NCBI GenBank assembly: GCA_963555705.1
Contig: OY743180.1
Location: 40,084,129-40,148,128, forward strand
DNA length: 64,000 nt
DNA from: Ligustrum vulgare
Taxonomy: Eukaryota; Streptophyta; Magnoliopsida; Lamiales; Oleaceae
Direction: 5' to 3'
Shown in pieces: positions 9,506-60,844 of this stretch; position 1 is the first letter of the stretch, and each line of letters starts with the position of its first letter. The notes below the pieces were generated by a model. The model searched no databases and was not told the DNA's origin. It worked only from the letters and a program-made list of their open reading frames with translations. Both the position numbers and the translations under genes were made by a program.

Positions 9506-9506
9506 G

Positions 9507-15819: not shown

Positions 15820-15839
15820 CCATGAAATCGGACAACCTC

Positions 15840-19320: not shown

Positions 19321-19323
19321 ACT

Positions 19324-19336: not shown

Positions 19337-19339
19337 AGC

Positions 19340-32393: not shown

Positions 32394-32406
32394 TGGTATC
32401 AGAGCC
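32394..32406 (+). other. Primer binding site (tRNA-Met)
   Basis: TGGTATCAGAGCC directly after the 5' LTR, complementary to the 3' end of initiator tRNA-Met. Confidence 0.93.
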
Positions 32407-32848
32407 ATACCCGTTTTCTGTGAGTTGCTAGAAGTTTTTGTTGGCATCGGCTAAGGACTCTTCCTTAGCGGCACAACCGAGTTCTGGACTTCACCGATTG
32501 CTCCTGGTCTAGGTCACGATCGACGCTGCTCTTTGTCCTTCTTGGTCTAGGTCACGATCACGCCCCTCTTCAGCGCGATCTCTTCAGCAGTGCTTTTCCT
32601 TGGTTCGTTGCTGCGCATCTCAGTCGTGTGCCTCAGAATTTTTGAAGTTCTCGCTCCTCCTGCTTTCTTCCAGTTCCAGCGAGTTCGTCTGCTTCTCTCT
32701 TGGCCGTGGTCTGTGCGGTAATTTGTGTTTGGTCGTGGGTCGTGTGATTTCTTTTTGCATATAACTCGATACTCATTTTATTTGCAAAGTAAATTTGTGT
32801 GGGGAATCTGAAATTGGTGATATTGAGTTCGTATTTCTCGACTTTATC

Positions 32849-34535: not shown

Positions 34536-34735
34536 ACTTTCTCCGTGCAAAAAGTGAAGTGTTTACAGTTTTTCTGACTTTTCTTGCTCTCATTGATACT
34601 CAATTCTTGTCCTCCATTAAGATCTTACGCTCTGATTCAGGTGGCGAATATATGTCTATTGCATTCCAATCCTTTTTACAAACCAAATGAATTATCTCAC
34701 AACGATCATGTCCCTCTACCCCACAACAAAATGGG
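34536..34735 (+). pseudogene. Copia integrase middle part with nonsense codon
   Basis: After the inserted T, the frame of gag is regained: FLRAKSEVFTVF, then ILRSDSGGEYMS with the second catalytic Asp, up to TGA at 34688-34690. The same frame continues past the TGA into CPSTPQQNGVVERKNRH, which bears the third catalytic residue (the Glu of VVERKN). A single G-to-T change (GGA to TGA) explains the stop. Confidence 0.88.
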
Positions 34736-36945
34736 GTGGTTGAACGAAAAAATCGCCATCTTCTTGACATGGTTAGAACTCTTTTAATTGAGTCTTTCGT
34801 TCCTTCTCGTTTTTGGTGTGAAGCTCTATCTATAACTGTTCATCTAATAAATAGATTGCCAACTCCAGTTCTTGGTAATGTTTCTCCATTTTATAAATTG
34901 TTTGGTCATCATCCCACATATTCTCATCTCCGTCCTTTTGGGTGTGTTTGTTTTGATCATCTGCCACCTCATGAAAGGACAAAACTCACCCCACAATCTG
35001 TCAAGTGTGCTTTTTTAGGATATGCTGCAACTCAAAAAGGATATATTTGTTATGATTCTAATGCACAACGCCTCCGGATCTCTCGTAACGTTATTTTCTT
35101 TGAAAAACAATTTTTCTTTACTTCAGAGCCTACTGCTCTCTCTCCTATGTTTTCTGTGTTGCCTGACTTTACTGCAGAATCTTCCCGATACAAACCTGGT
35201 CTAGTTTACACCCGTCGGCATGTTCCTTCTGAGCCTCTTCTTCAGACGTCAGTCCTGCCAGGTCTTCACAATCCTTCTCCGGAGACATCAGATCCTGTCG
35301 CAGTTGCTACTCCTCCCCTGCCCATATTGCGCCGTAGTTCTCGTATCACTCGCCCTCCAGATAGGTTTGTTACTTCTTCCCATAGCTCTTTGTCAGCTAC
35401 CCTTAACTCTATTTCGATCCCTTCTTCCTATAGACAGGCTATGGAACAAGAGTGTTGGCAAAATGCGATGAATGCTGAACTTAAGGCACTTACAGCAAAT
35501 CAGACATGGGATGTTGTTCCATGCCCCTCAAATGTAAAACCCATTGGCAGTAAATGGGTGTACTCGGTCAAACTTCATTCTGATGGTTCTCTTGAGCGCT
35601 ATAAGGCTCGATTGGTGGCCTTAGGAAATCGTCAGGAATATGGGATTGACTATGATGACACATTTGCTCCCGTTGCTAAGATGACCACCGTTCGTCTCTT
35701 ATTGTCAATTTCCGCTTCTCAGTTTTGGCCATTACATCAGATGGATGTAAAAAATGCATTCTTACATGGAGATCTGAAAGAAGATATTTATATGAAGCTT
35801 CCCTCTGGTATGCCCCTTCCCTCTGCTGACTCTGTGTGTAAATTAAAACGTTCTTTATATGGTCTCAAACAGGCTCCTCGGGCATGGTTTGACAAGTTTC
35901 GCGGCACCCTCTTGGCATTCTCATTCATTCAGAGTCAATATGATGCATCTCTCTTCTTTCACATAACCTCAAATGGTATTGTTTTTTTGTTGGTATATGT
36001 TGATGATATTATTGTCTCTGGGTCTGATCTCGCCCTTATTCAGAAGCTTCAAGAACACCTTCACTCAATTTTTCATATGAAGGATCTTGGTCATCTCACT
36101 TACTTTCTTGGTTTGGAGGTTCGGACTACACCTCATGGTATCTTCTTGAATCAACATAAGTATGCTCAGGATTTGATTCAGTTGGCCGCTCTATCTGATG
36201 CTTCTTCTGTTGATACCCCGTTAGAAATGAATGTTAAATATCACAAGGATGAAGGGGATATTATTCCAGATCCTACCTTGTATCGAAAGTTGGTAGGAAG
36301 TCTTATTTATCTCACCATCACGCGTCCGGACATTTCCTTCGTTGTTCATATTGTCAGCAAATTTATGGACGCTCCTCATCATCTTCACATGACCGCTGTC
36401 CGTCGCATTATTCGCTACCTCATTGGGACTCCTCATCGCGGGTTGATCTTTCCTAAGGTGACTCCTCTTCAGCTTACTGCTTATAGTGATGCTGACTGGG
36501 CTGGTTGTCCCGATTCTCGTCGCTCTACCACTGGGTGGTGTATTTTCCTTGGAGATGCTCTTATTTCTTGGAAGTGTAAGAAACAAGATAGTGTTTCTAA
36601 GTCCTCTACCGAGGTAGAATACCGGGCTATGTCTGCTGCATGTTCTGAAATTGTGTGGTTACGTGGTCTTCTTACTGAACTTGGGTTTCCCCAGTTGAAT
36701 CCTACGCCTCTCCATGGAGATAACACTAGTGCTATTCAGATTGCTGCCAATCCTGTGTACCATGAGCGCACCAAACATATTGAGGTGGTTGTCATTACAT
36801 TAGAGATGCCTATGATTCTAAAGTTATCACTCTTCCCCATGTCTCTACTGATCAACAAACTGTTGATATCTTCACCAAATCTCTATCACGTCTTCGTCAT
36901 AACTTTCTCGTCAGCAAATTGATGCTTGTGGACTCCCCAGCATAA
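34736..36945 (+). pseudogene. Copia integrase end, reverse transcriptase, RNase H
   Basis: A 728-aa open frame. It has the integrase C-terminal region (MVRTLLIESFVPSRFWCEAL; FGCVCFDHLPPHERTKL), then RT with GSKWVYSVKLHSDGS, RLVALGNRQEYGIDYDDTF, MDVKNAFLHGDLKEDIYM, GLKQAPRAW and the catalytic LLVYVDDIIVSG, and RNase H with YSDADWAGCPDSRRSTTGW and KSSTEVEYRAM. All key RT residues are present. Near 36788 one base is missing after HTKHIEV-type sequence (HERTKHIEV), so the last 50 or so codons are out of frame; in the correct frame they reach TAA at 36943-36945. Confidence 0.92.
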
Positions 36946-36949
36946 ATTT

Positions 36950-36962
36950 GAGGGGGGGGGGG
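36950..36962 (+). other. Polypurine tract
   Basis: GAGGGGGGGGGGG immediately before the 3' LTR, the primer for plus-strand DNA synthesis. Confidence 0.9.
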
Positions 36963-37135
36963 TATTAGAATATTATTCTTACCATGTATAGATTAGCATA
37001 TAATCAGGGATTGATTCCATATATCCCTATATTGTATAGATTGATTTATTTCCTTATATTGTTGTAATTCTATCTATATATAGAGATCAAACCCAAAGTT
37101 TGGGATTATCGAGCAAACTACCTAGCACATTCACA
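36963..37135 (+). repeat. 3' LTR of young Copia
   Basis: 173 bp, two differences from the 5' LTR; followed by CTTTT. Confidence 0.95.
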
Positions 37136-38601: not shown

Positions 38602-38640
38602 AGTGCCTACGGCTTTCTAATGATAAAAAAAAAAAAAAAT

Positions 38641-41345
38641 TGTAGCGACCAAGAATTTTCACGCATTTAAATACTTATTTTAAATTATGGAAAATCGTGC
38701 CGCTGCGATCTCACCCATTTTTAAGTTAACGCCGCAACGTATTCGTATAGTCAAGTCGAGAAATGTAAAGTCAATTCGATTTTAATTAAATTCCGAATTT
38801 CTAAAATTTTATTATTTTATTTATTTATTTAAAATATTATTTTCAAAATCATTTTAAATCCCAAAATTACGTCAATCTCATTTTATCAGTTTCATTCTTC
38901 TGATCCAGTTGAATTTGCGCACGATTTTCCTCGAATTACGTGCAATGCTTGTCTAGGTTTTCACACCACCAACCCCCATCCATCACATCAGTCCACTACC
39001 ATGCCATACCTAACTCTATATCACTTTCCCTTCCCAAACCCAACTCTCAGAATCCTCACACCACCCAAAACCGTCCCAGTGCAAGCTCCATTACAGGTTC
39101 CTCCCAGCTCCATCTCAAGCTCCATTGCAGCCTCTTCACGAAGCCATTGCAGCTGCCTCATTCCAGCAACCCCAAGCTCGTCATCACCACCTCAATCACC
39201 ACTGTCCAACCGCACCCAACTCAACTCTGATTCCACCATCATCATCAATGAATCCCCAGCAAACCTCCACCAAGAACCACCATTTCCACAACCCAGCCAG
39301 TCGACCCACCTGCAGCAACACCATTCCACAACCAACATCTCCCTCTCTGCTCCACCTCAAGCCTCATTTCCAGCAACCAGTTCAACTCCATTGCAGCCTC
39401 CTCCTAGCTCCATTGCAGCCTCTTCCCAGCATCTCCATTCACAGTCCAGTAAGGTAAGAACAGCCCTCAACCAACTCATCGCACAACCCGCACATCACCA
39501 CTGCTCAGCAACAACCTAGCAACCATCACCACCATCTTCACTATGGAGTAGCCACCACTCCACAGGCACGGCCAACCTCCAGCAAAACCAAGCCATTTCA
39601 GGTTCCTCAAATCTAAACCCATCATCAACAACCACCTCGACCAAGCATCATCTTCACCACTCAAACTGTCACCTCCATCATCACCACCTCAACCCCCCCA
39701 ACACCATCACTAACCGGCCAACCCAACTCCACTGTCCATTTCGTTTCTCCCCGTTCTTGACCTCCAAATCGAACCCAAAGAAAACCCATGAATCAAGAAG
39801 TTCAATTTCTTACCTTAATTTCTGGAAAATCACGAACCAAGCCTCGTTTTTTGCCTCGATCGCGCACCCAAACTCGCACCTAGATCCCAAAATCTGCCCC
39901 TTTTCCATGCCCACTGCTTGCCACCGCACTGCGCGGCGTTTCGCCGGCGAAAGCGCTGGCTGGAGATCGGCGCGCAGCGGGGCGCGATTGGACGTCGCGT
40001 CCTCCCTTTCTCTCTCTCGTCTCTGTACCGAAAATGGGAGAGAGAGAGAATGGACTTTTGTTTTTATATTTTGATTTTCTGAAATTATAGCTTGGTCCCC
40101 AAGTTTTAAAATGTTTCAAATCAGTCATGTTAGTTTTTAAACAATCAATTCAGTCCCTTAAGTTTTTAAATGATTTTTAATCAGCCCTTTCATTTTTAAA
40201 ATCAATTATTTCAAGCCCTATAGTTTAATATTCGTTTTGAGCTTCAACACAACTTTTGAAAATTTATATTTTAGTCTCTCAAGTTTGAAAATTTACATTT
40301 TAGTCTCTCAAGTTTGAAAAGTATTCATTTTATTCCCTCAACTTTCAAATTACTCATTTTAGTCCTTCAACTTTCAAATCATCAATTTCAGTCCCCAAAT
40401 TGTAATTTATCATTTTAAATTATAAATTTCAAAAGACTAATTTAACTTATTTTCTAATTGGTTAGACGACGCGTACGGAGTTTTAAAGGATTGAAGTCAT
40501 TTTCCTCTCGACTTTACACTCGTTGAATTTAAGGTAGACTCGCTCCTATTAATTGATTTAAATTATGATTGCATGTGAATGTGTATGTTATGTGACTTAT
40601 GTGAAATTCATTTTTATGAAAAGGAACGAGAATGTATTTTTTCGGAAATATTTATATTGTTATGCTTGTCATAACTTATATGCTTTTATGCATGAGAAAG
40701 AAAGAATAGAATATCTTGCAAGATAAATGATGATGTTATCCATAACTTATGTGCCTTATGTGCACGAGAAGAAAGAAGTCATGTGCTTTAATGCACGAGA
40801 AAGAGCAACCCACACCCTGTGATTTCTAAAGAGCCTATGATTTTAAAAAAGAAGCCATGTGCTTTAACGCACGAGAAGAGCAACCCACACCCTATGATTT
40901 CTAAAGAGCCTGCATTTATGTGATCAATCATATTGTAGATTAATTAATTGGCGATAAGTCTACTGAGTATTTCTATGAAATACTCATGTCTTTTTTAACA
41001 ACATTTGCAGATTTCGGAGAGGGTGGCAAGTGATGGATGATTGTGGCAATAGTCGCTAAATGGTTGAAAATCTTATTTTAATGATTCGTATTTCCAAACA
41101 TTGGATAATTTTGGAGAATTTCAATTATTTGAGAAATTATGACATTGTCAATTGTTTTACAATATTAATGGCTCGATTTATTATTTCGAATTGTTTCATA
41201 AAGTTTTACTCTTTATCGACCATTACAGTTTATTTAATGTTGCCAAAAATGAATTTCAGTTATTTTCTTCCGCTAAAATATTATTTTAAAATTTAGACCA
41301 GAAGATGACGTGGTGAACCAGATATTTAGAACTCGGGGCGTTACA
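38641..41345 (+). repeat. Solo LTR of the gypsy family
   Basis: 2705 bp, from TGTAGCGACCAAGAATTTTC to CTCGGGGCGTTACA, with exact AAAAT target duplications (38636-38640 and 41346-41350). No second LTR or interior follows, so it is a solo LTR left by recombination. It is about 40 bp after the PIG-U copy 1 stop codon. It has the family's C-rich segment (38960-39740) and GA repeat, and a run of TTTTAGTCYYTCAAGTTTGA-like repeats (40265-40400). Confidence 0.9.
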
Positions 41346-44029: not shown

Positions 44030-45063
44030 ACATGTGTCCGTCCATCCCAAATCACACCCGACCCCACCCTACCCCATCGAACTCCAACCCAAAAATGATT
44101 TTTTTCCTTCTACTTTTTGACATCCCACCCACCTCACCCCCACCCCGACACCACCCTACCCACTCACCCTACCACCCCCGCAAAAATAAGGGTTTGTCTA
44201 TCTCTCTCTCGATCTCGATGTTTTCCCAACCGACACTGCCACCCTATGCCACCTCACCCATAAAGTGACAAATTGATCCCACAAAATCACAAATCACAAT
44301 TACAAATTTAATCGCAAATTTCACCATAATCCCACCCCATCGCACCCCACTCCACCGAACTTCAACTCACACACAAAGTCATATTTGATCATACAAAGTC
44401 ACAATTACAAATTTAATTGCAAAATTTACCTCACCCCACCCCACCCCACCCCACCTGACATGTAAATTCATAGCTGGTCATATAAAGTCACAGGTCAAAA
44501 TTACAAATTTAGTTGCAAAACCCCACCCTTCCCCACCTCACCCTAAAGTCACAACTGGTCATACAAAGTCACAATGCGGTCACACAAAGTCGTAATTAGG
44601 TCACACGAGATCACAATCACTCAGAAATGATTTTTTTCTCTATATTTCCCCACCTATCCCACCCCACCCCGTTCCATCCCATCCCCACCCAGACCCAAAA
44701 TGATGTTTTCCTCTATGTTTTCCCACCCTCATCTCATCCAACTAGCAAAGTCACAATTGGTCACACAAAGTTACAAGTCACAAATCACAATTGCAAATTT
44801 CACTGTAACCCCATCCAACTCTACCACATGCAAAGTCATATTTGGTTACTCAAAGTCACAATTAGTCACACAAGGTCACAATTCGGTTAAAATTACAAAT
44901 TTAGTTGCAAAACCCCACCCACCAACACCAACACCAATCCTAAACTCTCGATCATAAGGAGTTCACAGTTAGTCACATAAGGTCACAGTTAGGTTACAAT
45001 TGGTCACACAAAGTCACAATTATGCCACAATTACAAATTTAGTTACAAAATTCACCCTCACCC
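44030..45063. repeat. Degenerate CACAAAGTCACAATT / CCCCACCCC repeat tract, left part
   Basis: Irregular tandem units of the form ACAAAGTCACAATTNGGTCA, ACAATTACAAATTTAGTTGC and CCCCACCCCACC recur about every 80-130 bp. The same units resume at 53583 after the LTR element, which split the tract. Open frames here are low-complexity and not genes. The tract may be a decayed satellite or minisatellite. Confidence 0.7.
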
Positions 45064-45369
45064 TGTAGCGACCAAGAATTTTTACGCGATTAATAATTAT
45101 TTTAATAGAAAATCGTGTCGCTACTATTTCACCCATTTTTATTGAGTTAACGCAGCGACGTATTCGTATAGCCAAGTCAAGAAATAATCGAGATCGTTCG
45201 ATTTTAAATTAAATTCCGAATTTCTAAAAATATCTCCATTCTCTTGATTTAAAGTATATTAAGTCCAAATACTTAATTCAATGTTATCCCAATATTTATT
45301 TATACAAAAATTACTTTTATTATTTAAATTAAGAAAATATATGCAAGCATGAGAGGTTCCATTATATGT

Positions 45370-45915
45370 AATCATGAAGAGCATAATATTTGTATAAAAA
45401 ATGGAAAAGTATATGAATGATTTATATACTCCATTATTTATAATCATGAAGAGCATAATATTTGTATAAATATGGAAAAGTATATGAATGATTTATATAC
45501 TCCATTATATATAATCATGAAGAGCATAATATTTGTATAAATATGGAAAAGTATATGAATGATTTATATACTCCATTATATATAATCATGAAGAGCATAA
45601 TATTTGTATAAATATGAAAAAGTATATGAATGATTGATAAGACTCCATTATATGTAATCATGAAGAGCATAATATTTGTATAAAAAATGGAAAAGTATAT
45701 GAATGATTTATATACTCCATTATATGTAATCATGAAGAGCATAATATTTGTATAAAAAATGGAAAAGTATATGAATGATTTATATACTCCATTATATATA
45801 ATCATGAAGAGCATAATATTTGTATAAATATGGAAAAATATATGAATGATTGATAGACTCCATTATATATAATCATGAAGAGCATATTATTTGTATAAAT
45901 ATGGAAAAGTATATG
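45370..45915. repeat. 71-72-bp tandem array in the 5' LTR, 8 copies
   Basis: AATCATGAAGAGCATAATAT recurs at 45370, 45442, 45513, 45584, 45656, 45728, 45800 and 45871. Units vary slightly in TATAAAAAATGG against TATAAATATGG. The array is in the upstream (U3) part of the LTR, where promoter and enhancer repeats usually lie. It is repeated in the 3' LTR at 51824-52369. Confidence 0.92.
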
Positions 45916-46008
45916 AATGGTGCTTTACTTTAAGAAAAGGATGTGTTAAAATTAATAGAATTGAATGATTATGTTTACAATATGCCAACTTTATACATCT
46001 ATTTAAAC

Positions 46009-46020
46009 CCATCTCTTTTA
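46009..46020 (+). promoter_or_regulatory. Candidate TATA box of the LTR
   Basis: CTATTTAAACCC lies between the two LTR arrays, followed by a pyrimidine/ACAC-rich stretch typical of plant LTR transcription starts. Transcription from here would place the 49-bp array in the transcribed leader. The 3' LTR has the same sequence at 52463-52474. Confidence 0.4.
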
Positions 46021-46146
46021 CACACAACTCTACACATATACACTTATTTCCAATCTCTTGACAAAATCCACAAGTAAGAGAAATTCAAGGTGGTCAAGAA
46101 AGTTTTGGTTCGTTTACTACTACACTTCATTTTAATCTTTTAAAAG

Positions 46147-46600
46147 GTAAGTATATCTTATGTTTTTATGTAAAGTAAGTATGTTTTTATGAAATGTAAG
46201 TATATCTTATGTTTTTATGTAAAGTAAGTATGTTTTTATGAAATGTAAGTATATCTTATGTTTTTATGTAAAGTAAGTATGTTTTTATGAAATGTAAGTA
46301 TATCTTATGTTTTTATGTAAAGTAAGTATGTTTTTATGAAATGTAAGTATATCTTATGTTTTTATGTAAAGTAAGTATGTTTTTATGAAATGTAAGTATA
46401 TCTTATGTTTTTATGTAAAGTAAGTATGTTTTTATGTAAAGTAAGTATATCTTATGTTTTTATGTAAAGTAAGTATGTTTTTATGAAATGTAAATATATC
46501 TTATGTTTTTATGTAAAGTAAGTATGTTTTTATGAAATGTAAATATACCTTATGTTTTTAAGAAAAGTAAGTATGTTTTTATGAAAAGTAAAATACCTTA
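46147..46600 (+). repeat. 49-bp tandem array with 16 GTAAGTAT motifs, 5' LTR
   Basis: Each unit holds two copies of GTAAGTAT, one before ATCTTATG and one before GTTTTTATG. I count 16 exact copies plus three degenerate ones at the downstream end (GTAAATAT twice and GTAAAATA). The octamer is the perfect complement of the U1 snRNA 5' end and a strong plant splice donor. The first copy is preceded by AAAAG, giving AAG|GTAAGTAT. The array is repeated at 52601-53054. Confidence 0.92.
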
Positions 46601-47130
46601 TGTTTTTAACGAAAATGTTTGGATCATTGCTATGAAATAAATCTCACAAGATTGCTATGGGTCCCATATGATATGTTTATGATTATGCTAAGGGTACCGG
46701 AGTTTAGTAGCGCTACACATAAGAATTCTTGCCATTTAAGTTCGGTAAAATTCTTGTGTCTCCCTATATTTATGAGTATTTCGATCCTATCCTATGTTAT
46801 GATGAAAATGATCCATATGCTTTCAAAAGAAAATTTATGCTTGGTATACTTACTGGGATTTTATAAATCTCACTCCACGATATTTACCATTTTCAGATAA
46901 TTGAAGGTTCGAGGCGGTCAACATGGAAGTGACAAAAGTGGTTAAGATTGATGAGATAATTATGTTGAACTTTATGTAAGAAGATTATGTTCTATTTTTA
47001 TTCACAAATAAAATTATGGGATTCTAAATTATTCTTTTGAATAATTTTACATTACTATTTAAGTCTCGATAATATGATATGAGTCACTTTTAGTGGCACT
47101 CGAATGGTCGAGAATTCGGGTCGTCACAGT

Positions 47131-47141
47131 TGGTATCAGAG
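47131..47141 (+). other. Primer binding site (tRNA-Met)
   Basis: TGGTATCAGAG two bases after the 5' LTR; the match to the tRNA-Met complement ends after these 11 bases (next ACAAG). Confidence 0.85.
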
Positions 47142-47344
47142 ACAAGAGTTTTAAAAACGATTCTGTAGATTTTTGAAATTTTATTTCTTAAAAAAAAAAA
47201 AAAAAATACTATTCACGTGAACAGTAAAACGACGTGCTATTCATGATGAACAGTGAACGAAATCACTATTCATTTAAAAAAAAAAAATTTGAATTTTCAC
47301 ATGTCAAGTATGGTTATGATTTTGAAAAGTATGATGAAATTTGA

Positions 47345-47640
47345 TGTGCGAATTTCAAGGACAAAATTCATTTTAAGCAAGGGAGTTTGTAATGTCCTGA
47401 AAATTTTATGGAATATAATTAGTTAGTGATATGATGTTTATATTGATGTCTTTGATAAATTTCTAGAAGTTCGGGGATTAAAGGAAAATAAGATTTGACG
47501 ATAAATTTTTATTTGGGTTAATTAGGCCCAATCTTATGTAAAGATGTGAAATGATTAATAATAATTTTTTTTAAAATATTTTAACTCATCACTCTACTAT
47601 GTCACTCTCCACATATTGACTCCTCGAACCAGGTATGTTA
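47345..47640 (+). other. Second LTR-start-like segment inside the element
   Basis: AATTTCAAGGACAAAATTCA followed by TTTTAAGCAAGGGAG and TGTAATGTCCTGAAAATTTT repeats the layout of a chromovirus 3' end (AGGACGAAATT motif, polypurine tract, LTR start TGT). It suggests that a piece of another element's 3' end is embedded in the interior, so the interior is a mosaic. No matching LTR end was found. Confidence 0.45.
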
Positions 47641-47935
47641 TATGCTTTGCAAGTCATTTACGATTTTATTAAGACATGTTAAGTATGAAATATTCATATG
47701 TTATGAATCTTTAAGTGAAATATACATGTTGAGTATGATATGAATTGATAGAAGCCTAAATTTTAATTTATTCATTTTAATGTAGAATCATGAGACATAG
47801 AGGATATTGATATGAATTTTGGTTCATATTAAGCTTAGTAAGATTGACTCAATTAGAAATTAAGTTGGGTTGTAACTTTGGCCCAAAATATATGGAATAA
47901 TATATTAAACAAACAAAATTGATAATGAATTGTAC

Positions 47936-48120
47936 AATAATTTATCCCTTTATCACTACCTTTGTGTAAAAGCAAGGGAAAAACTGTGGATGGTTATTAG
48001 TACTTCCTCTTCAAGTTTCAATTTTCGGTTCAATAATTTATCCCTTTATCACTACCTTTGCTTAAAAGCAAGGAAAAACTGTGGATGATTATTGGTACCA
48101 CTCTTCAAGTTTCAATTTTG
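47936..48120. repeat. About 95-bp tandem duplication
   Basis: CAATAATTTATCCCTTTATC, then ACTACCTTTG, AAAAGCAAGG, AAAACTGTGGATG and TCTTCAAGTTTCAATTTT occur twice in the same order (first copy from about 47936, second from about 48032), with a few substitutions. Confidence 0.85.
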
Positions 48121-48849
48121 AAAAAAAAAAAAAAAAATATATGATTTACGAATGATTTTCGAAATAATCTTTGTCGTCAAGTTTAGAAATGATGAGCCCT
48201 AAATGGACTTTGCATAATTGATTTTAGACATGGCACTAAGTATGAGAAGTCAACAGAAAGGACTAGATAATATTTTCGAATTATTCATCGTTTAGATTAA
48301 ACGAGAAATAGAAAGTCAGTTTTATGAAGTTATGATGAGATGTTGAGATTATAAGTGATATGATTTTATTGAGATTTTTATGAGAAGAATTATGAAGTTG
48401 GAGATTTAAAGTTTAGGCTCTTAATTATTGAGAAATAAGGACTTGATATGGTGATATTAGAAATTATGATTTGAAATTTCTATGTTGAGGAATTATGAAT
48501 TGATTTTCTGGAATATTTATGATGATATTGAAGTTTGATGAAATTGTGATCAAATGTACAATTAGTTATTATTGTGAGTTATGAAGTATGCTTACGATTT
48601 GGATAAGTCCAAATTTCAAAGGAAAACTCTGCCTAGAATTTTATCGTTTGGAGTTAAGAGCATAGTATGGTATGCAATCACTAAGAGAATTGAAGTTAGA
48701 CATACAAGTTCATTTACATCACAAACGAGATTTAGTAGATGATAACAGAGATATTATTATTTTCTCATAAGGAGAACACACAAGAGTCACCCTAGAAAGG
48801 AAATACATGAAAACACGCAAAAGCAAAAGAAAGCAACATGGGAAATTCC

Positions 48850-49080
48850 TCAAATTGAGAGATGTGTTTCCGGAGTAGCCGTATCCTACCACCTCTGACC
48901 TTTTGAGGAAATAAAGAAACCTTCAAAAAGGTGTGTTTCGAGAGTAAGAATACTCCGTAATCTACCACCTGGAACCTTTGAGGTACACACAAGATTTAAA
49001 CATTAAGGAAAATCCTAGGAAATTAGAGGGGTGTCTCGAGAGTAAGAATACTCCGTACTCTACCCCCACCTATTCTAAGA
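48850..49080 (-). repeat. Three hairpin-forming repeats after the LOG frame
   Basis: Related segments lie at about 48860-48900, 48926-48972 and 49026-49073. The last two share CGAGAGTAAGAATACTCCGTA; the first is more diverged. Each is bounded by arms that can pair: AGAGATG with CACCTCT, AGGTG with CACCT, and AGGGGTG with CCCCACCT. The arm sequences differ but pairing is kept, which suggests selection on structure. On the minus strand they follow the LOG stop codon, where a 3' UTR would be. Not one of the RNA families I know. Confidence 0.6.
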
Positions 49081-49081
49081 T

Positions 49082-49759
49082 TCATAAAGTTAAGTTTACA
49101 TTAACCGGACTCCATTTTCGCTTGATTCCCCTTCCTTGCGACCAATCTATCTTAACCCCTGCTGGATCTTGTATTGAGATATATGACTGCAGCTTATCCA
49201 GTAGTTCATCAATAGTAGGAGCAGAAATAAGAAGCCTTCTGGAAAATGGAGAGATGAATCCCTGTTCCACAGCATAATCAAGAAAGGTTAACAAGCCATC
49301 AAAGAAATTGTTAACATTCAAAAGCCCAATAGGCTTAGTATGGAGATCTAGTTGAGCCCATGAGGTAATGTTAAAGATTTCTTCTAAGGTACCAAAACCT
49401 CCGGGCAAGGCTATAAAGGCATCAGAACCATATAGCATACAAGTTATGCGTTCATGGATGGATAAGGTTTGAACTTCATGCCCTCGTGTTTTTCCTGCAA
49501 CATCTACCAAAGGGACAGGTATGACACCGATTACTTTTGATTTCTCTGCAAGAGCAGATTGGGAAACACAACCCATTAGACCACTGCTACCACCCCCATA
49601 CACAAGAGTGATACCTTTTTCCCCCAGTTTCTTTCCAAGATCTACGGCCGCTTCTAGATAACTGAAGCCTTTCCCCACTTTTGATCCACAAAATACACAA
49701 ATAGTTTTGATCTGTCGAAGTTTTGGTGCTTCCGTCTTTGATAGTATAGAAGAGAAAAC
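49082..49759 (-). CDS. LOG-like (lysine-decarboxylase-family) protein, no introns
   Basis: LOG enzymes release active cytokinin bases from their riboside monophosphates. The frame is open from after TAA at 49760-49762 to TGA at 49082-49084. It has the N-terminal ICVFCGS block (49682-49702), the VYGGGSSGLMG block, the signature PGGFGTLEE (92-100 counting from GTG 49678) and the conserved end GLLNVNNFFDGLLTFLD. Arg of the usual MHxRK motif is present (IHERIT) but Lys is not. Plant LOG genes have several introns; none is here, which suggests capture from an mRNA. No in-frame ATG precedes ICVFCGS, so the start is lost, non-AUG, or supplied by splicing. It resembles the divergent plant LOG-like branch more than LOG1-LOG7. 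Confidence 0.82.
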   Translation of the reverse strand, partial: VFSSILSKTEAPKLRQIKTICVFCGSKVGKGFSYLEAAVDLGKKLGEKGITLVYGGGSSGLMGCVSQSALAEKSKVIGVIPVPLVDVAGKTRGHEVQTLSIHERITCMLYGSDAFIALPGGFGTLEEIFNITSWAQLDLHTKPIGLLNVNNFFDGLLTFLDYAVEQGFISPFSRRLLISAPTIDELLDKLQSYISIQDPAGVKIDWSQGRGIKRKWSPVNVNLTL

Positions 49760-50045
49760 TTACCAAGAAGATGTGATTTTGGGATGCCTGAACTATGAAA
49801 TATGTTTGGCTATTTAAAGCCGGAAAAATTTACTGTTTTTGATTGATTCTGAAAAAGTAAAGATTTACTTTTGACAAAATCAGCCTACTTTTGACTATTT
49901 TATCAAAGCTTTCATCTTTCGGTGATTTATTTTCCAGCTTTATCAAACCTCGAGAAAGGAAAATATATTTTTACCAACCTTTATCAAAACGCGTGAAAGG
50001 AAACAGAAGAATATTTTAAATATGTATCAAGAGATTTACCTTATA

Positions 50046-50591
50046 TCAATGCTGATTTGCCACAACCTCATTGTGTAAAACAGACTGGCAGATAGGATCT
50101 TTTGCAGTTATATTTTTGAGACTATAATGATTTTTGTCTTCGTTAAACTGAGCGTATAAGGAGAGAAGTTCACGTTGCACATAACCACTTGGGTGCGTCT
50201 CAAGAGTCAGTCGAATATCATCCAAAGACTCCTTACTCAGTCCACCCTTTATGAATTTGATTTTATCATCCCGATTAGTAGAAGAATATCCTACTGTTTT
50301 GCAACGAGTATCACAGTTCCAACGAGCACATTTGTAGCAACCATTCAGCCTTTTTGCTCTTCGTTTCTTTGCGAAGGTGCTTTTGCCTAAACCAGGCATG
50401 TGCTTTGGAAATGTCATAGGTAATTCACCAGATAATCGAACTTTTGCTTCGATCAACCAGCGAACATCTTCTGGAATACCATGAGCCATCAGCAACCTCA
50501 ACCTTTCGAGCCTAATTCGATAAATTTTTCTCAGATCATTCATAGGAAGATTGGAATAATACTTGCGAATGTTTGAAAGGATGATATCCAT
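50046..50591 (-). CDS. Viral-type nucleic-acid-binding protein (basic + Cys4 finger)
   Basis: An intact 181-aa frame from ATG (50589-50591) to TGA. Residues 70-97 read GKSTFAKKRRAKRLNGCYKC then ARWNCDTRC: a Gly-Lys-Ser, a basic stretch and Cys at 85, 88, 93 and 97. This layout is the hallmark of the small cysteine-rich RNA-binding proteins encoded at the 3' end of carla-, viti- and trichovirus genomes (Betaflexiviridae). Residues 1-60 are helical-looking with many Arg/Leu; the region after 110 (DDKIKFIKGG) also fits that group loosely. TTTAAATAG and TATACC lie 30-50 bases upstream. It is in the same orientation as the LOG-like frame, 290 bp upstream of it. A host protein with a convergent finger is the alternative. 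Confidence 0.6.
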   Translation of the reverse strand: MDIILSNIRKYYSNLPMNDLRKIYRIRLERLRLLMAHGIPEDVRWLIEAKVRLSGELPMTFPKHMPGLGKSTFAKKRRAKRLNGCYKCARWNCDTRCKTVGYSSTNRDDKIKFIKGGLSKESLDDIRLTLETHPSGYVQRELLSLYAQFNEDKNHYSLKNITAKDPICQSVLHNEVVANQH

Positions 50592-51319
50592 TTTTGATGG
50601 ATCTAACCTCTTCCCAACATGATCTATTTAAAGGTATAAAGGAACTAAGTGGATCCATCTGATATTGATTCCAGCAAGAAAGCGCGGAATAGAATAATGA
50701 AAAGAAGAGACAAGAATTAATGCGCTGTTTAATTTTATCGATAAAGGAAGATTTGATGATAAGATTTTGAGATACAGAATATTTTCTTGGATTTGGTACT
50801 GATATTTTAGGTATAATAATAAGTAATTAAGGTATGGTGTGATGATACGTGAATACGTGAAAGTGAAATAAGGACCGTATCGAATCAGAATTCATAAGTA
50901 TGTACAAGTGAAAGAAATACCTTGCGGGAAATGTTGTGACAATTAAGTGAAGAATTTTAGTTATTTGGGAGCTAATTATTTATTTGAATTTTGCAGAACG
51001 TTTTGGTTACAAATATGGGAAAAGATAAGCTGATGATATTATGTTGATTGATGAATAATATGTTTGGATATATTACATAGGGAATATTCAGGTAACCATT
51101 TTATTTACTTTGGGACATTTGGTGATAAGAAGAAATGACTAATTATTATGGTATGATATGTTAGTAAAGATTTATTGAAATTTTAGAGATATTAATACGA
51201 ATATTTGAGGTCACATGATACGATGATAAGTGACAGGTTACATGAGTACTACAAGACATGATGAAATATCACATACGATTGGGAATTTTCCTTTTGAGTC
51301 AGAATTTATGAGTAGACAC

Positions 51320-51470
51320 ATATGTCTATTATTGATAGAAAAGTCCATGTTTTTAAGAAAAACAAAGATATGCATTTAATCAAAGTCCAGTGGGTTAAAT
51401 ATAGTAGCAATGATACTACCTAAGAGAAGAAGAGAAGAGATTCTGATTAAGTGTTCAGAAATCATAAGAT
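51320..51470 (+). pseudogene. Chromodomain scrap of a gypsy polyprotein
   Basis: The plus strand reads SIIDRKVHVFKKNKDMHLIK then VQWVKYSSNDTT and a TAA. It parallels the chromodomain start IVERKNYVLRNKEIPLVKVQ of the element at 5221-9505. It lies just before the AATTTCGAGGACGAAATTAT motif and polypurine tract, the normal place for the end of pol. It shows that the gene-carrying element derives from a chromovirus by internal replacement. Confidence 0.65.
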
Positions 51471-51500
51471 CAAGTAAGTTTAATTTCGAGGACGAAATTA

Positions 51501-51517
51501 TTTTAAGAGGGTAAGTT
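51501..51517 (+). other. Polypurine tract
   Basis: TTTTAAGAGGGTAAGTT directly before the 3' LTR start TGTAGCGACC. Confidence 0.7.
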
Positions 51518-51823
51518 TGTAGCGACCAAGAATTTTTACGCGATTAATAATTATTTTAATAGAAAATCGTGTCGCTACTATTTCACCCATTTTTATTGAG
51601 TTAACGCAGCGACGTATTCGTATAGCCAAGTCAAGAAATAATCGAGATCGTTCGATTTTAAATTAAATTCCGAATTTCTAAAAATATCTCCATTCTCTTG
51701 ATTTAAAGTATATTAAGTCCAAATACTTAATTCAATGTTATCCCAATATTTATTTATACAAAAATTACTTTTATTATTTAAATTAAGAAAATATATGCAA
51801 GCATGAGAGGTTCCATTATATGT

Positions 51824-52369
51824 AATCATGAAGAGCATAATATTTGTATAAAAAATGGAAAAGTATATGAATGATTTATATACTCCATTATTTATAATCA
51901 TGAAGAGCATAATATTTGTATAAATATGGAAAAGTATATGAATGATTTATATACTCCATTATATATAATCATGAAGAGCATAATATTTGTATAAATATGG
52001 AAAAGTATATGAATGATTTATATACTCCATTATATATAATCATGAAGAGCATAATATTTGTATAAATATGAAAAAGTATATGAATGATTGATAAGACTCC
52101 ATTATATGTAATCATGAAGAGCATAATATTTGTATAAAAAATGGAAAAGTATATGAATGATTTATATACTCCATTATATGTAATCATGAAGAGCATAATA
52201 TTTGTATAAAAAATGGAAAAGTATATGAATGATTTATATACTCCATTATATATAATCATGAAGAGCATAATATTTGTATAAATATGGAAAAATATATGAA
52301 TGATTGATAGACTCCATTATATATAATCATGAAGAGCATATTATTTGTATAAATATGGAAAAGTATATG
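51824..52369. repeat. 71-72-bp tandem array in the 3' LTR
   Basis: Same eight-unit array as 45370-45915. Confidence 0.92.
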
Positions 52370-52600
52370 AATGGTGCTTTACTTTAAGAAAAGGATGTGT
52401 TAAAATTAATAGAATTGAATGATTATGTTTACAATATGCCAACTTTATACATCTATTTAAACCCATCTCTTTTACACACAACTCTACACATATACACTTA
52501 TTTCCAATCTCTTGACAAAATCCACAAGTAAGAGAAATTCAAGGTGGTCAAGAAAGTTTTGGTTCGTTTACTACTACACTTCATTTTAATCTTTTAAAAG

Positions 52601-53054
52601 GTAAGTATATCTTATGTTTTTATGTAAAGTAAGTATGTTTTTATGAAATGTAAGTATATCTTATGTTTTTATGTAAAGTAAGTATGTTTTTATGAAATGT
52701 AAGTATATCTTATGTTTTTATGTAAAGTAAGTATGTTTTTATGAAATGTAAGTATATCTTATGTTTTTATGTAAAGTAAGTATGTTTTTATGAAATGTAA
52801 GTATATCTTATGTTTTTATGTAAAGTAAGTATGTTTTTATGAAATGTAAGTATATCTTATGTTTTTATGTAAAGTAAGTATGTTTTTATGTAAAGTAAGT
52901 ATATCTTATGTTTTTATGTAAAGTAAGTATGTTTTTATGAAATGTAAATATATCTTATGTTTTTATGTAAAGTAAGTATGTTTTTATGAAATGTAAATAT
53001 ACCTTATGTTTTTAAGAAAAGTAAGTATGTTTTTATGAAAAGTAAAATACCTTA
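52601..53054 (+). repeat. 49-bp GTAAGTAT array, 3' LTR
   Basis: Same array as 46147-46600, with the same unit order and degenerate end. Confidence 0.92.
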
Positions 53055-53587
53055 TGTTTTTAACGAAAATGTTTGGATCATTGCTATGAAATAAATCTCA
53101 CAAGATTGCTATGGGTCCCATATGATATGTTTATGATTATGCTAAGGGTACCGGAGTTTAGTAGCGCTACACATAAGAATTCTTGCCATTTAAGTTCGGT
53201 AAAATTCTTGTGTCTCCCTATATTTATGAGTATTTCGATCCTATCCTATGTTATGATGAAAATGATCCATATGCTTTCAAAAGAAAATTTATGCTTGGTA
53301 TACTTACTGGGATTTTATAAATCTCACTCCACGATATTTACCATTTTCAGATAATTGAAGGTTCGAGGCGGTCAACATGGAAGTGACAAAAGTGGTTAAG
53401 ATTGATGAGATAATTATGTTGAACTTTATGTAAGAAGATTATGTTCTATTTTTATTCACAAATAAAATTATGGGATTCTAAATTATTCTTTTGAATAATT
53501 TTACATTACTATTTAAGTCTCGATAATATGATATGAGTCACTTTTAGTGGCACTCGAATGGTCGAGAATTCGGGTCGTCACACACCC

Positions 53588-55352: not shown

Positions 55353-57278
55353 GCGAATGGCGTTCTAGTTGTAGACAAGACTGAGAATCGAAGTGTCGAC
55401 ATTTCTCTTTCCCCAAACCCTCCTTCTCGCCCAAACCTTCCCCTGCACCGCCGCCCGCCTCCTGCCCTCCGGCCTCTACACACACTTGACAATCACTGCG
55501 TCTGCGTATCTGCGATTCTTGAGGCCTGGAGGTTGCCGACTCGCCGGTAAAATTCTTTCTTCTCTAACATCGAGACTTCGAGGTTATTTTTCAGATCGAT
55601 TCAAGTCTCAAGATGCTTTTTATGTTTACATCTCCCATTCAGTTTTCTCATTATTTGTGCTCTGTAGATTTTGGGTATCGTTGCAACCTTCGTAAAAGGA
55701 TGTTCATATGCTTACAATACATTTCATTTCATTTTGCACATCCTCATTGAGTCATTGTTGTGACTTAAGATTTTATTTGTGTCGGGTAGACACAAATTTC
55801 AAAAATTTTGGAAGGCTTGCTGAAAAATAGGTAGTGGGATTATCTTTAAAAAATTGAAACTTGCACTAATTTGATAGTTAAACCGAAGTCCATTATTGTT
55901 TGGGGCTTTTTTAGAAATAATAAGTCACACCCAAACATGCTCCTTTCTGTGTGATTTTTCAACATATCAAGTATCAGAATTTCATGAGAATAGAACCAAA
56001 AGTATGCTAAATATTGAGTTAATAAATTCAAGGTCTGTCAAGATATTTACTATAGAACAAATTGATAAATGAAATTGACTCTTAGTTTTTTTTAGTACAT
56101 GTGTTAGCTTGTATTTAAATTTTGGACTTTAACCTCATTCTCATATAGTCAAATTTGTATTGCAGGTTAGGGATAAGTATCTTAATTCTTCAATGCGTTG
56201 AGATTGATCAGTTGATTGCGATTTTGCAAGGTTAGTGAGAATGTGATTTTGAGATTTGAATTTGATTTTAGAATGCGAGTGATAATATCAGCTAATGGAT
56301 TTGGTCTTATTCAGTTTTCAGATTATATAATTTATATTATTCTATTTGATTTAGAGAATGTCATTTGATATTGATATTTAGAATGTGATTTTGAAATTTG
56401 AATTTGAGAATGTGAGTTATAATGTTAGATAATATGTTTTGGACTTGGTCAATTTTGGATTATGTGGTTTAGATATTAAATTATCTGATTTTGAGAATGT
56501 GATATAGATTATAAATTTATGATTTAGAATCTACTTTATAGAATGTGATGTAGATTATTAATTTATAAATTAGCTCGGCTCAGGCCCAAAAACTCACAGG
56601 TCCCCCCCCCCAAAGAAAAATTTAAAATCTAGCTGGGCCCAATATAAAATTTTGAATTCGCTGTGTCATCATCATGTATAAATTTCAGATTTTAGAATTT
56701 TGTTAGATTTCAAATTTTAAATGTGCATTATAGATTTGGGTAATGCATATATGTATGTATAAGTTATAGATAGATTTAAGATTTCTGAAATCATGAGGGT
56801 TATGATATTGGTTAATTGTTGGTATGGTATTTGAAGTTATATAATGGTTATTTTCAAATTTGGGATTTGTAAGAATTTAGAGTATCTTGATTTAACTTTT
56901 AGTTGAGATTCAAAATAAATGATTAATTTCAGATTTATGAATGGTTAGATTTGTTAATTGAATATTTTGTAAAGTTTAAGCTTAAGTTACATACTATAAT
57001 TTGAAATTGAGTATATTGATAAGTAATGAATTTCCCAAGTTTGCATTGAAATTGACCTCTTATTTCGAATATGATATTATATGTGTTTGACATCACTTAA
57101 GGACACATTTGAAATAAAATTGTGAGCCACATAGAAATCTTAACCTCGTTTAAGAGTTTAGAACGTGTTTGTGAATTGAAAGTTATACTTTATTGATGAA
57201 TGGAAAATTAGGACATTTAGTATAGTGGGAGCAATCGTTGATCTATAAGGAAACCCGGATCGTTACACACACTCTTCT
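55353..57278. other. Non-coding stretch upstream of PIG-U copy 2
   Basis: 55390-55560 is more GC-rich with a GGTAAAATTC donor-like site after GACTCGCCG and could be the leader exon of a gene, but no protein family is recognised in its 100-aa open frame. 55700-57265 is AT-rich with many GAATTTGAGAATGTGA-like repeats (56230-56560). It ends ACCCGGATCGTTACA, which looks like the 3' terminus of a gypsy LTR abutting the PIG-U leader; its start was not found. Confidence 0.4.
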
Positions 57279-57471
57279 ATGGGATCTGGAACTATCAGAA
57301 TGGAGGAGAAAACAAGGAACAACATTAATGAAAAGAAGTTAGGGTTTTGGAAATGGGCAATTGCTTCCATAGTATTCAGATTAATTCTGATTTACTTCCC
57401 CCAAAATCTCAAACTCTCATCTCGTCCGGAAGTCTCGACTCCGGTCACCAGCATCCGCCGACGTAATTACC

Positions 57472-57524
<53 letters not shown>

Positions 57525-60500
57525 CATACATATATGCGCGCACACACACACACACACATATACATAAATGTGTGCATGTATTTGCATCTTTGTTTGTGCA
57601 GTACATGAATTCTAAATGTTTTTGTGTTTTTGCTTGTAGTGGCGGAGGGATACTGGTTAAAGCAGTTATCAACGTCGCCTTATGCTGGTTTGTATAATTT
57701 GCATATAGTAGTTAATACGATTTTCATCATGTCTGGCCTTGCTTTAAAAAACTTGGGACATTTGCATAAACACCCAAAATTTTGGGGTAATTTCTTCCTT
57801 CTGGAAAGTATCCAAAATTTTCCAATTTTTTATGATACTTACAGCCTAAATACTTATGAAGAGCGTAAATTTGAGCAATGAAAAAAAATGATGTAGATTT
57901 CAGTAAAATTTTGCGAGCGATATATTTCAGTTCAAGGAGAAAAATGGTGCATCGTGCAATTATCCCTTAAAAATCACGTATGGCAATATAATTAACTTAA
58001 AACGTAATTTTCACTTTTTTTTTAACATAGAATAGATAAACAAGTCTATATGGTTAAGTGATTATTTTGGAGTGAAAAGTGCAGGTTCAATGTACCATGG
58101 ATCGCCGTTATTGCTATCAGTTTTGGGTCCTCTTACTGCAATAAAGTAAAGCTTCAATTAGCGTCCTTTCTGTTTTAAATTTATGTTATCAGCAGCAATG
58201 ATTTGTGTACAAGGAGTTCTGAGAATTGATGAATAATCACATAATGCAGGATTGAAGGGCAGCCTAATAATCTTTTATGCAGGTACCATGGCATTTTATT
58301 AAGATTTTTAATGTCTTTCTTTTTTCTCTTTGTTTTTATGCAGATTATCGTTGGGAAATACCTATTTGTTGGAAATCCTCCAGTAGTATCATGAGATGTT
58401 TATATATAAATTTTGTTTGTTATTACATTTTTTGGAGAATTATCTAGACAAAGTATCAACACATGTTTGGAAATAGTTTGGTTTCTGTGATTGCAGATTT
58501 AATCTGTGCACTTCTTATTCGTGCCATTGGACGTATTCTTCAAACAACACATGGTCAGAATTTGAAATCTTTAGGCCTTGACAAAATATTGACAGACATT
58601 GGTAATTTATTTATTTTTAGCATTGTTATTGCGCCTGTTCATTTATGATTTTATGATTTTCCATTCTGCATTCTTCCTATAGGAAACTGATGAAGTTATT
58701 TTGCAATTGTTTCTAGAGGTTATCCCATCTGGTGACATTGCTGCTCTTGTGTATTTATGGAACCCTTTCACCATATTCACCTGTGTTGGTTTTAACACAT
58801 CGCCCATTGAAAATTTGTTCGTAGTCTTGTCTCTTTATGGAGCATCTGCAGGTAAAGAAAATTCTTCCGCTTATGTTGTCCCTGGTATCACTCACAATAA
58901 TTGGACTGGAATGTATCTTGATTTTTTTCCCAATCACTTCAAAGCTTCTCCAGTTGCAAACTGGATCTGCTGATTATTGACACAAAGCATCAAGTTTATT
59001 TATTTTTGAAGTTTGTTTAGAATTCTAAATCTACTATATACAGTATTTCCAATTTGTCTACTGATCTTCAACAATTCTTATAATGTTCCACTTATGGAAA
59101 ACTGGGTTTAAGGGGGCCACCTTGCTACTTAACTCATGAGCATGAGAAAGATTACGTCAAAGTCATATATGAATCCATTTAGTAAGTCACATGACCTATG
59201 ATTCTTTCGCTTAATCTATCCAATTGTTCACCTTATGGGGAACACTGACGGTTGAATGTTACACACAACCTACTTTAGTGGAAATGTCTACTACGTGTAC
59301 TGTAGCCTTGTCATCATAATTCATAATTATTAATTAGGGAATCTATCCAATTGAATCCTTATGGGGAGCAATGACCATTGAATGTTACACACAACCTACT
59401 TGAGTGGAAATGTCTACTATGTGTGCTGTAGCCTTGTCATCATAATTCATAATCAGGGTTAGGAGAGTTGGAAAGTAAGTTTATTATTGAATTGCCTTGC
59501 AAATGATTTCATCTTCCATCAAGAGGTATATTTAGTCTTTGAACTCCTAGAAAGTAGAATAGGAACAATTTAAACGAAACAGTTTTTACAGTTTTAAAAC
59601 TTGTTGAATCCGAAGGTTTTAGGTATTATATGTAGTGCCCATGAGCTGCATATGAAGTAATCTCCTATTGCCATGTCTACTTATCACCAATCTATTTGAA
59701 CCGAGTAAGACTTGAGGGGGAGATGCCGTTTAGAGGGAATTGCTTGAATGATATTTTAGGTAAGCATTTCATGTTTTCCCCTTGTATGCTATCTTATATA
59801 TCGCGTGCTCAATGAAACCAATGTACTACATCTTTGCAAACGATTTAATATTATGTCTTGTGATGATATTATTGAATATATATGAACTTCAGTGAAATTT
59901 TAATACCATAATTGAGGTTCATAGCCTGTATTTGCTTTCTCAGGAATGACTTTGATAGGTCATTTTCTCAAATATTTGATAAGCATCATTTCCATTTATT
60001 TCCAGGTCTAACAAATTTCCATGTAAAAATTATTGACCAGAGTCGTATAATCATAGGATAATGACACATTGAATCATTATCTATCACGGCTAATTTTATG
60101 TGCAACCCAGTCATTTGATTCTGATGACGCAGGAATAGTACCACTGGCAGCTTTTGGGTGGGTTATAGCATCCCATTTGTCTCTTTATCCAGTGGTTTTG
60201 GTCATTCCGGTATGTTTTCATCAAAAATATTGTGCATAACAAAAAAAGCCGTACAACATTTCTACCTGATATTGGGAATGTTGATTAACCCATGTCCATT
60301 CAGGTGATCCTTTTATTAGGTTATTGTCCTGATATGCCCCCAAGAAAACTGTTTCTGCAAAGGGATTCACAAAAAACTGGAGCTGAAAGATCAACCAAGA
60401 ATCATGTCCAACACCGGTCATTGACAAATGAACCAGCAGAAGAAGCATTTCTGTGGTGGCGAGTAGTTCTCTTCTTTACGTGGGCATCCATATGGATAAC

Positions 60501-60566
60501 CTACGTCTTAATTTTGTGTGCGATATCGGTAAAAGACTACGGTGGTCTTCCAGAGATGTTTGAGAG
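57279..60566 (+). CDS. PIGU: PIG-U copy 2, exons 1-7 (gene continues past the window)
   Basis: PIG-U is the multi-pass ER membrane subunit of GPI transamidase (yeast Gab1), which attaches GPI anchors to proteins. Exons: 57279 (or ATG 57300)-57462; 57640-57687; 58085-58145; about 58448/58477-58601; 58717-58851; 60133-60209; 60304-60566. Key blocks: FWKWAIASIVFRLILIYFP, LAEGYWLKQLSTSPYAG, SMYHGSPLLLSVLGPLT, SGDIAALVYLWNPFTIFTCV, VPLAAFGWVIASHLSLYP, LLLGYCPDMPPRKLFLQ, YGGLPEMFER. Phases agree at every junction if exon 4 begins at 58477; 58448 would keep more of the family pattern but needs a non-GT donor for exon 3. No stop or frameshift was seen. Exons 8-13 lie beyond 64000. The 5' start has two in-frame ATGs seven codons apart; the downstream one has the more usual start MEEKTRNN. 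Confidence 0.88.
57472..57560. repeat. CT / TA / CA microsatellite
   Basis: (CT)n, then (TA)n, then (CA)n, in intron 1 of PIG-U copy 2, at the same place as the (CT)n of copy 1. Confidence 0.95.
59213..59453. repeat. About 125-bp tandem duplication in intron 5 of PIG-U copy 2
   Basis: AATCTATCCAATTG, ACACACAACCTACTT, GTGGAAATGTCTACTA and GCCTTGTCATCATAATTCAT occur in the same order from 59213 and again from 59340, with few differences. The region is missing from copy 1, where the gypsy element lies. Confidence 0.88.
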
Positions 60567-60844
60567 GTATGTTTCTATATTGTAATACCATTATTTATTT
60601 CCTTTGCCACTCCAATATCCATAGCATAATAACTGTTCAAGATTACTCTTCAGTATTTATATGCACTATTTATATGCACTCTACTGATATTTAAAATTAT
60701 AAAATTATATCAAATTGAAGTCTTGATGCTTTTCCTTGCCATCCAGTTAGCTAAAGAACTCATTTCATGTTATATTGTAATATCAAGATATGAAAATCAT
60801 TGCATATATGCTTATTTAAATTGTTAATTCTAATGTATACTTAT

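Follow-up and report, generated by a model that had tools for sequence, protein, structure and literature searches.

A long terminal repeat (LTR) retrotransposon at positions 45,064–53,582 of a 64,000-nucleotide stretch of Ligustrum vulgare DNA (GenBank assembly GCA_963555705.1, contig OY743180.1, positions 40,084,129 to 40,148,128; hereafter the window) raises the question of how an element that seems to have lost the genes for its own replication came to carry two others, on the opposite strand, in their place. One encodes a predicted flexivirus-type nucleic-acid-binding protein (NABP), the other a LOG-like, predicted cytokinin-activating enzyme. We moderately favour the reading that NABP and LOG form an accessory module, combining silencing suppression with cytokinin activation, in an element mobilised in trans. 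The structure and family status of the element are hardly in doubt. Another retroelement, rather than a fresh transduction, is the probable source of the gene pair, whereas its function as an accessory module is a tentative prediction.

All hallmarks of an LTR retrotransposon are present. The 5′ LTR (45,064–47,128, plus strand, TGTAGCGACC...GTCGTCACA) and the 3′ LTR matched to it (51,518–53,582, plus strand) are equal at 2065 of 2065 bases without a gap. They are enclosed by CACCC target-site duplications, the left one at 45,059–45,063 (read directly) and the right one at 53,583–53,587. The primer-binding site at 47,131–47,144 (plus strand), which we take to be of tRNA-iMet type, is of one kind in this element, in a related element of the window (element B) and in 20 copies fetched from the host genome. 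The polypurine tract (51,505–51,515, plus strand), also read directly, has a similar context at the interior end of element B. The preliminary description of this locus had reported 2065-bp LTRs without a difference in a very young element, the CACCC duplications, the primer site and the polypurine tract; full alignment and direct reading confirm all of these. At an assumed rate of 1.3e-8 substitutions per site and year, zero differences in 2065 sites would place the insertion roughly less than about 56,000 years ago (95% bound, assuming neither LTR conversion nor assembly error).

The antisense NABP-LOG cassette occupies 48,754–51,143 (minus strand, 2390 bp), with a GC content of 36% vs. 27–29% in the flanking interior. 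Besides NABP and LOG, the longest stop-to-stop frame in the interior is 109 amino acids, and no third gene is seen among such frames. When three pol pieces were compared with the element by tblastn, a single match passed E 0.1: a decayed stretch from the 3′ end of pol (51,307–51,390, plus strand; E 0.001 with the window frame 6898–7287). No gag-pol of its own was found, as judged from frames of at most 109 amino acids and this single pol trace, gag and reverse transcriptase not having been searched for by homology. The earlier claim that reverse transcriptase, integrase and gag are absent holds within that scope, apart from the surviving trace. The earlier picture of two intact antisense frames in about 2.1 kb is also partly retained: the antisense pair is there and NABP is intact, but LOG lacks an ATG at its conserved start, and the stretch without a counterpart in element B measures 2390 bp.

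Element B (12,247–22,010, minus strand; target-site duplication TAAAC, LTRs about 95% identical) carries integrase remnants and no cassette. It shares with the element the segments 48,141–48,753 and 51,144–51,757, which cover the two interior flanks and the start of the LTR, and has no counterpart to 48,754–51,143. The first of these segments (5′ internal, plus strand) is homologous to positions 18,996–18,063 of B (minus strand) at 70–85% identity. Because this related element has integrase remnants and no cassette, we conclude that pol was lost from the cassette-bearing one. Element B also matches the integrase end of a fragment, D, whose frame 6898–7287 contains SH3_Tf2-1 (PF24626, E 2.1e-16). 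The flanks shared with B, SH3_Tf2-1 in D and the pol trace therefore mark the element as Ty3/gypsy, chromovirus-type by these features. On sequence comparison it is a derivative of that type without gag-pol, with the cassette in the gap. An LTR-like stretch related to element B also lies at 38,640–41,345.

The NABP gene (50,046–50,591, minus strand) has an ATG, 181 codons and a stop. It matches the Pfam families Viral_NABP (PF05515; E 1e-8, 35.9 bits, cut-off 23) and Carla_C4 (PF01623; E 2.5e-5, 24.6 bits, cut-off 20.9). Among 393 candidates 345 relatives were found at E ≤0.01. In the 120 listed, the named ones belong to Orobanche, Populus, Xanthoceras and Acer; 63 have 181–182 amino acids and 105 have the spacing C-x2-C-x4-C-x3-C. 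At E ≤0.01, PF05515 is matched in 21 of 22 NABPs and PF01623 likewise in 21 of 22. A structure model from a deeper alignment (pLDDT 70.8, pTM 0.38) was used with caution; a first model from 22 sequences (pLDDT 53) had been discarded. In a structure-library search with the model, named flexivirus proteins made up 19 of the best 21 matches, the other two being nameless, and many of the flexivirus matches are labelled silencing suppressor or nucleic-acid binding. Searches of viral contigs with the single sequence and with the alignment gave no match. According to the accessible parts of PMC12172455 and PMC3689765, viral relatives of NABP suppress silencing and enhance pathogenicity, and their zinc-finger and basic motifs matter. 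By Pfam cut-offs the protein is flexivirus-type, with nucleic-acid binding and silencing suppression as predicted activities. It links plant RNA-virus accessory genes with retroelements, either direction of transfer being possible.

The LOG-like frame (49,082–49,735, minus strand) comprises 217 codons and a stop, within a reading frame open across 49,082–49,759. It matches PF03641 (E 1.4e-33), contains the PGGxGTxxE motif and has the Arabidopsis entry 2a33 as its closest relative in the PDB (E 2.9e-58). A tree was built by a quick method, with SH-aLRT support only and a midpoint root, from 86 of 121 rows, the best matches to the window LOG; of the 35 left out, five exceeded 260 amino acids and 30 were removed by hand (near-duplicates, mostly Reevesia, or truncated). 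The window LOG falls into a group of 47 rows with an SH-aLRT support of 99; the other 39 rows, all ordinary plant LOGs, lie outside it. By a script rule, an LxLxL-like tail is found in 37 of these 47 rows vs. none of the 39; a final tail of this kind occurs in 57 of the 120 relatives listed. In the LOG search two more copies, both on C15, have alignments that start at residue 1, and these may share the start state of the window LOG. Just 3′ of LOG, at 48,878–49,067, a motif of about 40 bp occurs in two close copies (90%) and a more diverged one, perhaps as part of the LOG 3′ end.

A TATA-like CTTTAAATAG at 49,810–49,819 (minus strand) precedes the start position of LOG by 84 nt and recurs in 18 of the 20 fetched copies; another lies 42 nt before the NABP start (50,624–50,633, minus strand; 19 of 20). 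These are the only two exact matches in the 64 kb, where 0.33 would be expected; two or more arose in 3 of 100 shuffles, a post hoc statistic since the pattern was picked after being seen. No other NABP or LOG remnant better than E 4 and no Rfam match were found in the window.

The host genome (1.385 Gb) holds at least 150 NABP copies; all 150 scored show 98–100% identity, and 148 have no internal stop. LOG is present in at least 150 copies, all 150 scored (window included) being given as 100%. As 145 of these lie on C1–C4, which make up 325 of the 1385 Mb, the total is a minimum; an even spread over the genome would extrapolate to perhaps 600 LOG copies. The 8835 and 9409 candidates of the first look, which went unscored beyond these, do not represent copy numbers. 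Twenty stretches of 9951 bp around NABP copies were hand-picked over many contigs from the 150: all contain a full NABP, and in 19 of them LOG is full and starts with an ATG, the remaining one having a frameshift in LOG. Both LTRs could be delimited in 16 of the 20, with 3–22 substitutions (0.06–0.40 million years) and interiors of 4374–4496 bp. Their target duplications, all different, are of 5 bp in 14 copies and 4 bp in one, with none in another. Many dispersed copies with target duplications of their own establish a multi-copy transposable-element family. Since it amplified without its own gag-pol, it was presumably mobilised by proteins from elsewhere. This bears out the earlier proposal of a family spreading a LOG and an RNA-binding-protein gene, at least 150 copies of each being present, with trans-mobilisation as its presumptive part; the cassette is clearly not confined to this locus. 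It had also been considered that other copies might hold gag-pol at this position, with the cassette inserted later. Element B alone fits such a description; the cassette is present in all 20 stretches, which, having been chosen through NABP, say nothing on the cassette-free share.

Among the fetched copies the LTR ranges from 1583 bp (locus L018, where two possible starts make the LTR figures doubtful) to 2488 bp. This variation perhaps arises through minisatellite arrays, which TRF found in the LTR with a 71-bp unit (45,358–45,919) and a 49-bp unit (46,143–46,608). Many of the NABP copies are lined up in rows, with spacings mostly of 6.4–7 kb (extremes 5.3 and 8.0). Regular rows of 3–5 units about 6.4–6.7 kb apart (G000:C23:10311325-10338627, C22:1306460-1326777 and C23:8036804-8050126) are probably tandem LTR-interior-LTR-interior arrays. 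At L059 (G000:C19:38444684-38445220) NABP is 93% like that of the window, the interior end is joined differently to the LTR, and LOG was not found in the 3.5-kb stretch; this copy may be a rearranged or older family member.

Further carriers illuminate the origin of the pair. Among GTDB contigs a scan turned up a single relative, L001 (DAIEQH010000041.1, 3330 bp), in which an integrase frame (104–1591; rve, H2C2) is followed in sense by NABP (1799–2344); the integrase frame has no chromodomain or SH3_Tf2-1 match. Positions 15,786–15,262 of element B match this integrase at 24% identity (E 6.8e-10). L001 is filed under a Candidatus Nomurabacteria bin, yet its content is like plant retrotransposon DNA; by content it would be plant DNA, and the bin is probably contaminated. 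With the L001 NABP as query, the host genome yielded ten copies at 70–73%, nine of them the loci L050–L058, and a large group at 66–67% with a 195-codon open frame, which may be a second subfamily. NABP is followed by LOG on one strand at all nine loci. At L060/L055 an integrase of the L001 type (65% and 56%) is followed by NABP and then LOG, all in sense. L001 and L060/L055 thus share an integrase without a chromodomain match and genes in sense behind it, a carrier type that we take to be Athila-like from known motifs. Related pairs therefore occur in two settings in one plant: sense behind integrase at one place, and antisense replacing pol in the window family. Between the window and L001, 112 of 171 NABP residues are identical, with dN/dS of 0.17–0.33 by three methods; the identity of 65% compares with a neutral mean of 47% and maximum of 54% in 1000 draws. 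This points to clear constraint on NABP between element lineages.

The following course of events may be proposed. The pair would have arisen as accessory genes behind pol, in the env position, of an Athila-like element type and been captured in reverse by a chromovirus-type element, for example by recombination or template switching. The cassette would be transcribed from its own promoters, the two TATA-like boxes giving separate short mRNAs. NABP may act like its viral relatives, suppressing RNA silencing or regulating genes. LOG may release active cytokinin and so favour dividing cells, in which retroelements have access to the germ line. For packaging and integration, the element RNA would depend on gag-pol proteins from an autonomous relative. 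A bolder version, which we regard as doubtful, is that NABP and LOG together make up a conserved module for host manipulation, passed between distant Ty3/gypsy lineages and kept here by a gag-pol-less parasite, others supplying replication; in it, and with the same reserve, the LOG relatives would carry a basic patch and a repression-like LxLxL tail at their end. If true, a non-autonomous element would supply accessory functions and other elements the replication machinery.

A number of observations weigh against the accessory-module reading or its parts. The 39 structure matches of NABP all have E ≥0.039, none being below 0.001, and TM by query length is at most 0.23. The L001 NABP is under the PF01623 cut-off (19.8 vs. 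20.9 bits). Across L050–L058, NABP has a stop in 3 of 9 and LOG is broken in 2 of 9, and the L060 integrase contains one stop. Integrase was found within 1.5 kb before NABP only at L055 and at none of the other eight; because it stands beside only one of nine pairs, descent from another retroelement is rated no higher than probable. A 101-aa frame of element B matched no Pfam family, and no Chromo domain was matched in the three window frames scanned, which may stop before it; the labels chromovirus, Tekay-like and Athila-like are based in part on known motifs. Within the burst, gene integrity and substitution patterns were assessed in 41 copies, comprising the window, the 20 stretches and 20 further hand-picked cassettes that include both stop-bearing copies. 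Because the 40 fetched copies were drawn from the 150 top NABP matches, copies with an intact NABP are favoured, and the fractions are not random-sample estimates. NABP is full in 39 of the 41 and has a stop in two. LOG is full in 34, broken in six and without a readable start in one; the window LOG cannot be translated from an ATG at the conserved start, whereas 39 of the 40 copies readable there have this ATG, the frame being full in 33 of the 39. Synonymous and nonsynonymous changes number 8:15 in NABP (39 copies, p 0.33) and 13:20 in LOG (30 in-frame copies, p 0.11). A selective sweep on the cassette, with lower diversity than in the flanks, was also considered and rejected: the signal faded without three odd copies, the variants are mostly singletons, and NABP was itself the selection criterion.

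Since no selection is detectable within the burst, the genes here may be passengers: inert cargo that entered by accident and multiplied with the element, the frames being intact because the burst is young. Of the rival explanations this one survives best, with a fair probability, though well short of even. The missing synonymous excess, the six broken LOG frames and the unreadable one, and the lack of an ATG in the window LOG all agree with it. It is opposed by the constraint on NABP between lineages, by the same pair order at nine of nine diverged places, and by the NABP relatives, which keep length and cysteines. The TATA-like boxes before both genes also speak against it, although near-identical copies are not independent. 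As constraint is evident between lineages and none is significant within the burst, the protein has been long kept, and the burst alone is no proof of use.

The preliminary description had seen a fresh transduction of host genes, and the element might have captured the mRNA of a host LOG and, independently, a flexivirus gene that had become endogenous. Such a capture would fit with the single uninterrupted frame of LOG, an enzyme of plant type, and with a NABP that belongs to families described from viruses. It is largely refuted by the nine diverged same-order pairs at L050–L058, one of them (L060/L055) in sense behind an integrase of another Ty3/gypsy type. NABP alone, likewise placed in L001, and the position of LOG in a clade distinct from the sampled ordinary plant LOGs also contradict it. 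The NABP/LOG records P0013/P0142 (8723 bp) and P0012/P0275 (4511 bp) have equal longest contigs, which is suggestive only of both genes lying on one contig, and the Orobanche gracilis gene model P0019 combines NABP and part of LOG in one protein. We consider independent capture improbable. Equally little weight is given to an effect at the RNA level, in which an antisense cassette transcript would regulate the sense transcript through double-stranded RNA. Such a role has been proposed for antisense transcripts of similar open reading frames (ORFs) in the accessible part of PMC7264820; it leaves unexplained both the conserved NABP sequence between lineages and the sense pair at L060/L055. Finally, endogenised virus remains with NABP and LOG, flanked by LTRs by chance, would explain the viral resemblance of NABP but are refuted, to a practically negligible probability, by the multi-copy LTR structure (both LTRs in 16 of 20 copies, interior 4374–4496 bp), an own 5-bp duplication in 14 of 16 copies and an interior in which no third gene of any kind is seen.

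Elsewhere in the window, a young-looking element at 32,221–37,135, presumably Ty1/copia-like to judge from its frames, has 173-bp repeats 98.8% identical and stop-to-stop frames of 275, 336 and 743 aa. Direct repeats of 83–88% (3457–5220 with 57,267–59,130; 9504–10,077 with 60,130–60,717) enclose most of the window and are perhaps an older large element broken by nested insertions.

With regard to known systems, LARD-type elements have intact LTRs, a primer site and a purine tract, lack gag-pol and are presumably trans-mobilised. They are described as non-coding, whereas the window element carries two genes. Steinbauerova et al. (2011) reportedly noted two Athila-like elements similar to LOGL4. 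A LOG/YgdH domain was found in Gypsy elements of Citrus sinensis and C. clementina and, with the filter off, of Populus trichocarpa (PMC9289625); their LOG and that of the window possibly belong to the same lineage. Unlike here, neither a NABP partner nor an antisense copy in a gag-pol-less family is given for those elements in section 12.

Antisense extra ORFs kept over many copies likewise occur in the interior of the plant Ty3/gypsy elements Grande, RIRE2, Retand and PvRetro13, as described in the available parts of PMC7264820 and PMC11963269, and some Retand elements are non-autonomous (PMC11963269), as is the window element. The earlier suggestion that antisense ORFs are unusual was therefore too strong, as they are relatively frequent according to the part of PMC7264820 at hand. 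That antisense orientation would protect the transcript of the element, as the preliminary description also proposed, is a conjecture. The reviewed ORFs are located downstream of pol and ahead of the 3′ LTR, whereas in the window element pol is gone. In the portions available, the antisense ORFs show no clear similarity to known proteins except an SMC domain in PvRetro13 (PMC7264820), and the Retand extra ORF has TRP28 and some chromosome-protein domains (PMC11963269); the antisense products of the window element, unlike those reviewed in PMC7264820, match viral and enzyme families. The sunflower Tekay element, also chromovirus-type, has a conserved 5′ extra ORF for which RNA-silencing modulation was suggested from structure. 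It differs in protein and position and keeps gag-pol, and the accessible part of PMC11728184 mentions no viral NABP or LOG.

The flexivirus NABP or cysteine-rich proteins of carlaviruses, vitiviruses and mandariviruses share PF05515/PF01623 and a basic region followed by a cysteine zinc-finger-like motif with the protein described here. The cysteine spacing is C-x2-C-x4-C-x3-C here vs. C-X2-C-X9-C-X4-C in Potato virus H, as given in the available part of PMC3689765. Unlike the flexivirus proteins, the NABP here is usually 181–182 aa long and is carried by DNA elements. In the literature consulted, mostly non-subscription and partly in excerpt (including PMC6317226, PMC13317346 and PMC3136472), we found neither a plant retroelement described as carrying a NABP nor any report of the NABP-LOG pair. 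LOG in Gypsy elements and antisense extra ORFs are thus known already, while NABP in this setting and the NABP-LOG pair are apparently new. The host genome holds well over a hundred identical predicted cytokinin-activating enzyme frames on mobile DNA. In general, extra ORFs are common in plant retrotransposons and their roles are mostly unknown; since both products here belong to named families with measurable activities, the role of such genes becomes testable.

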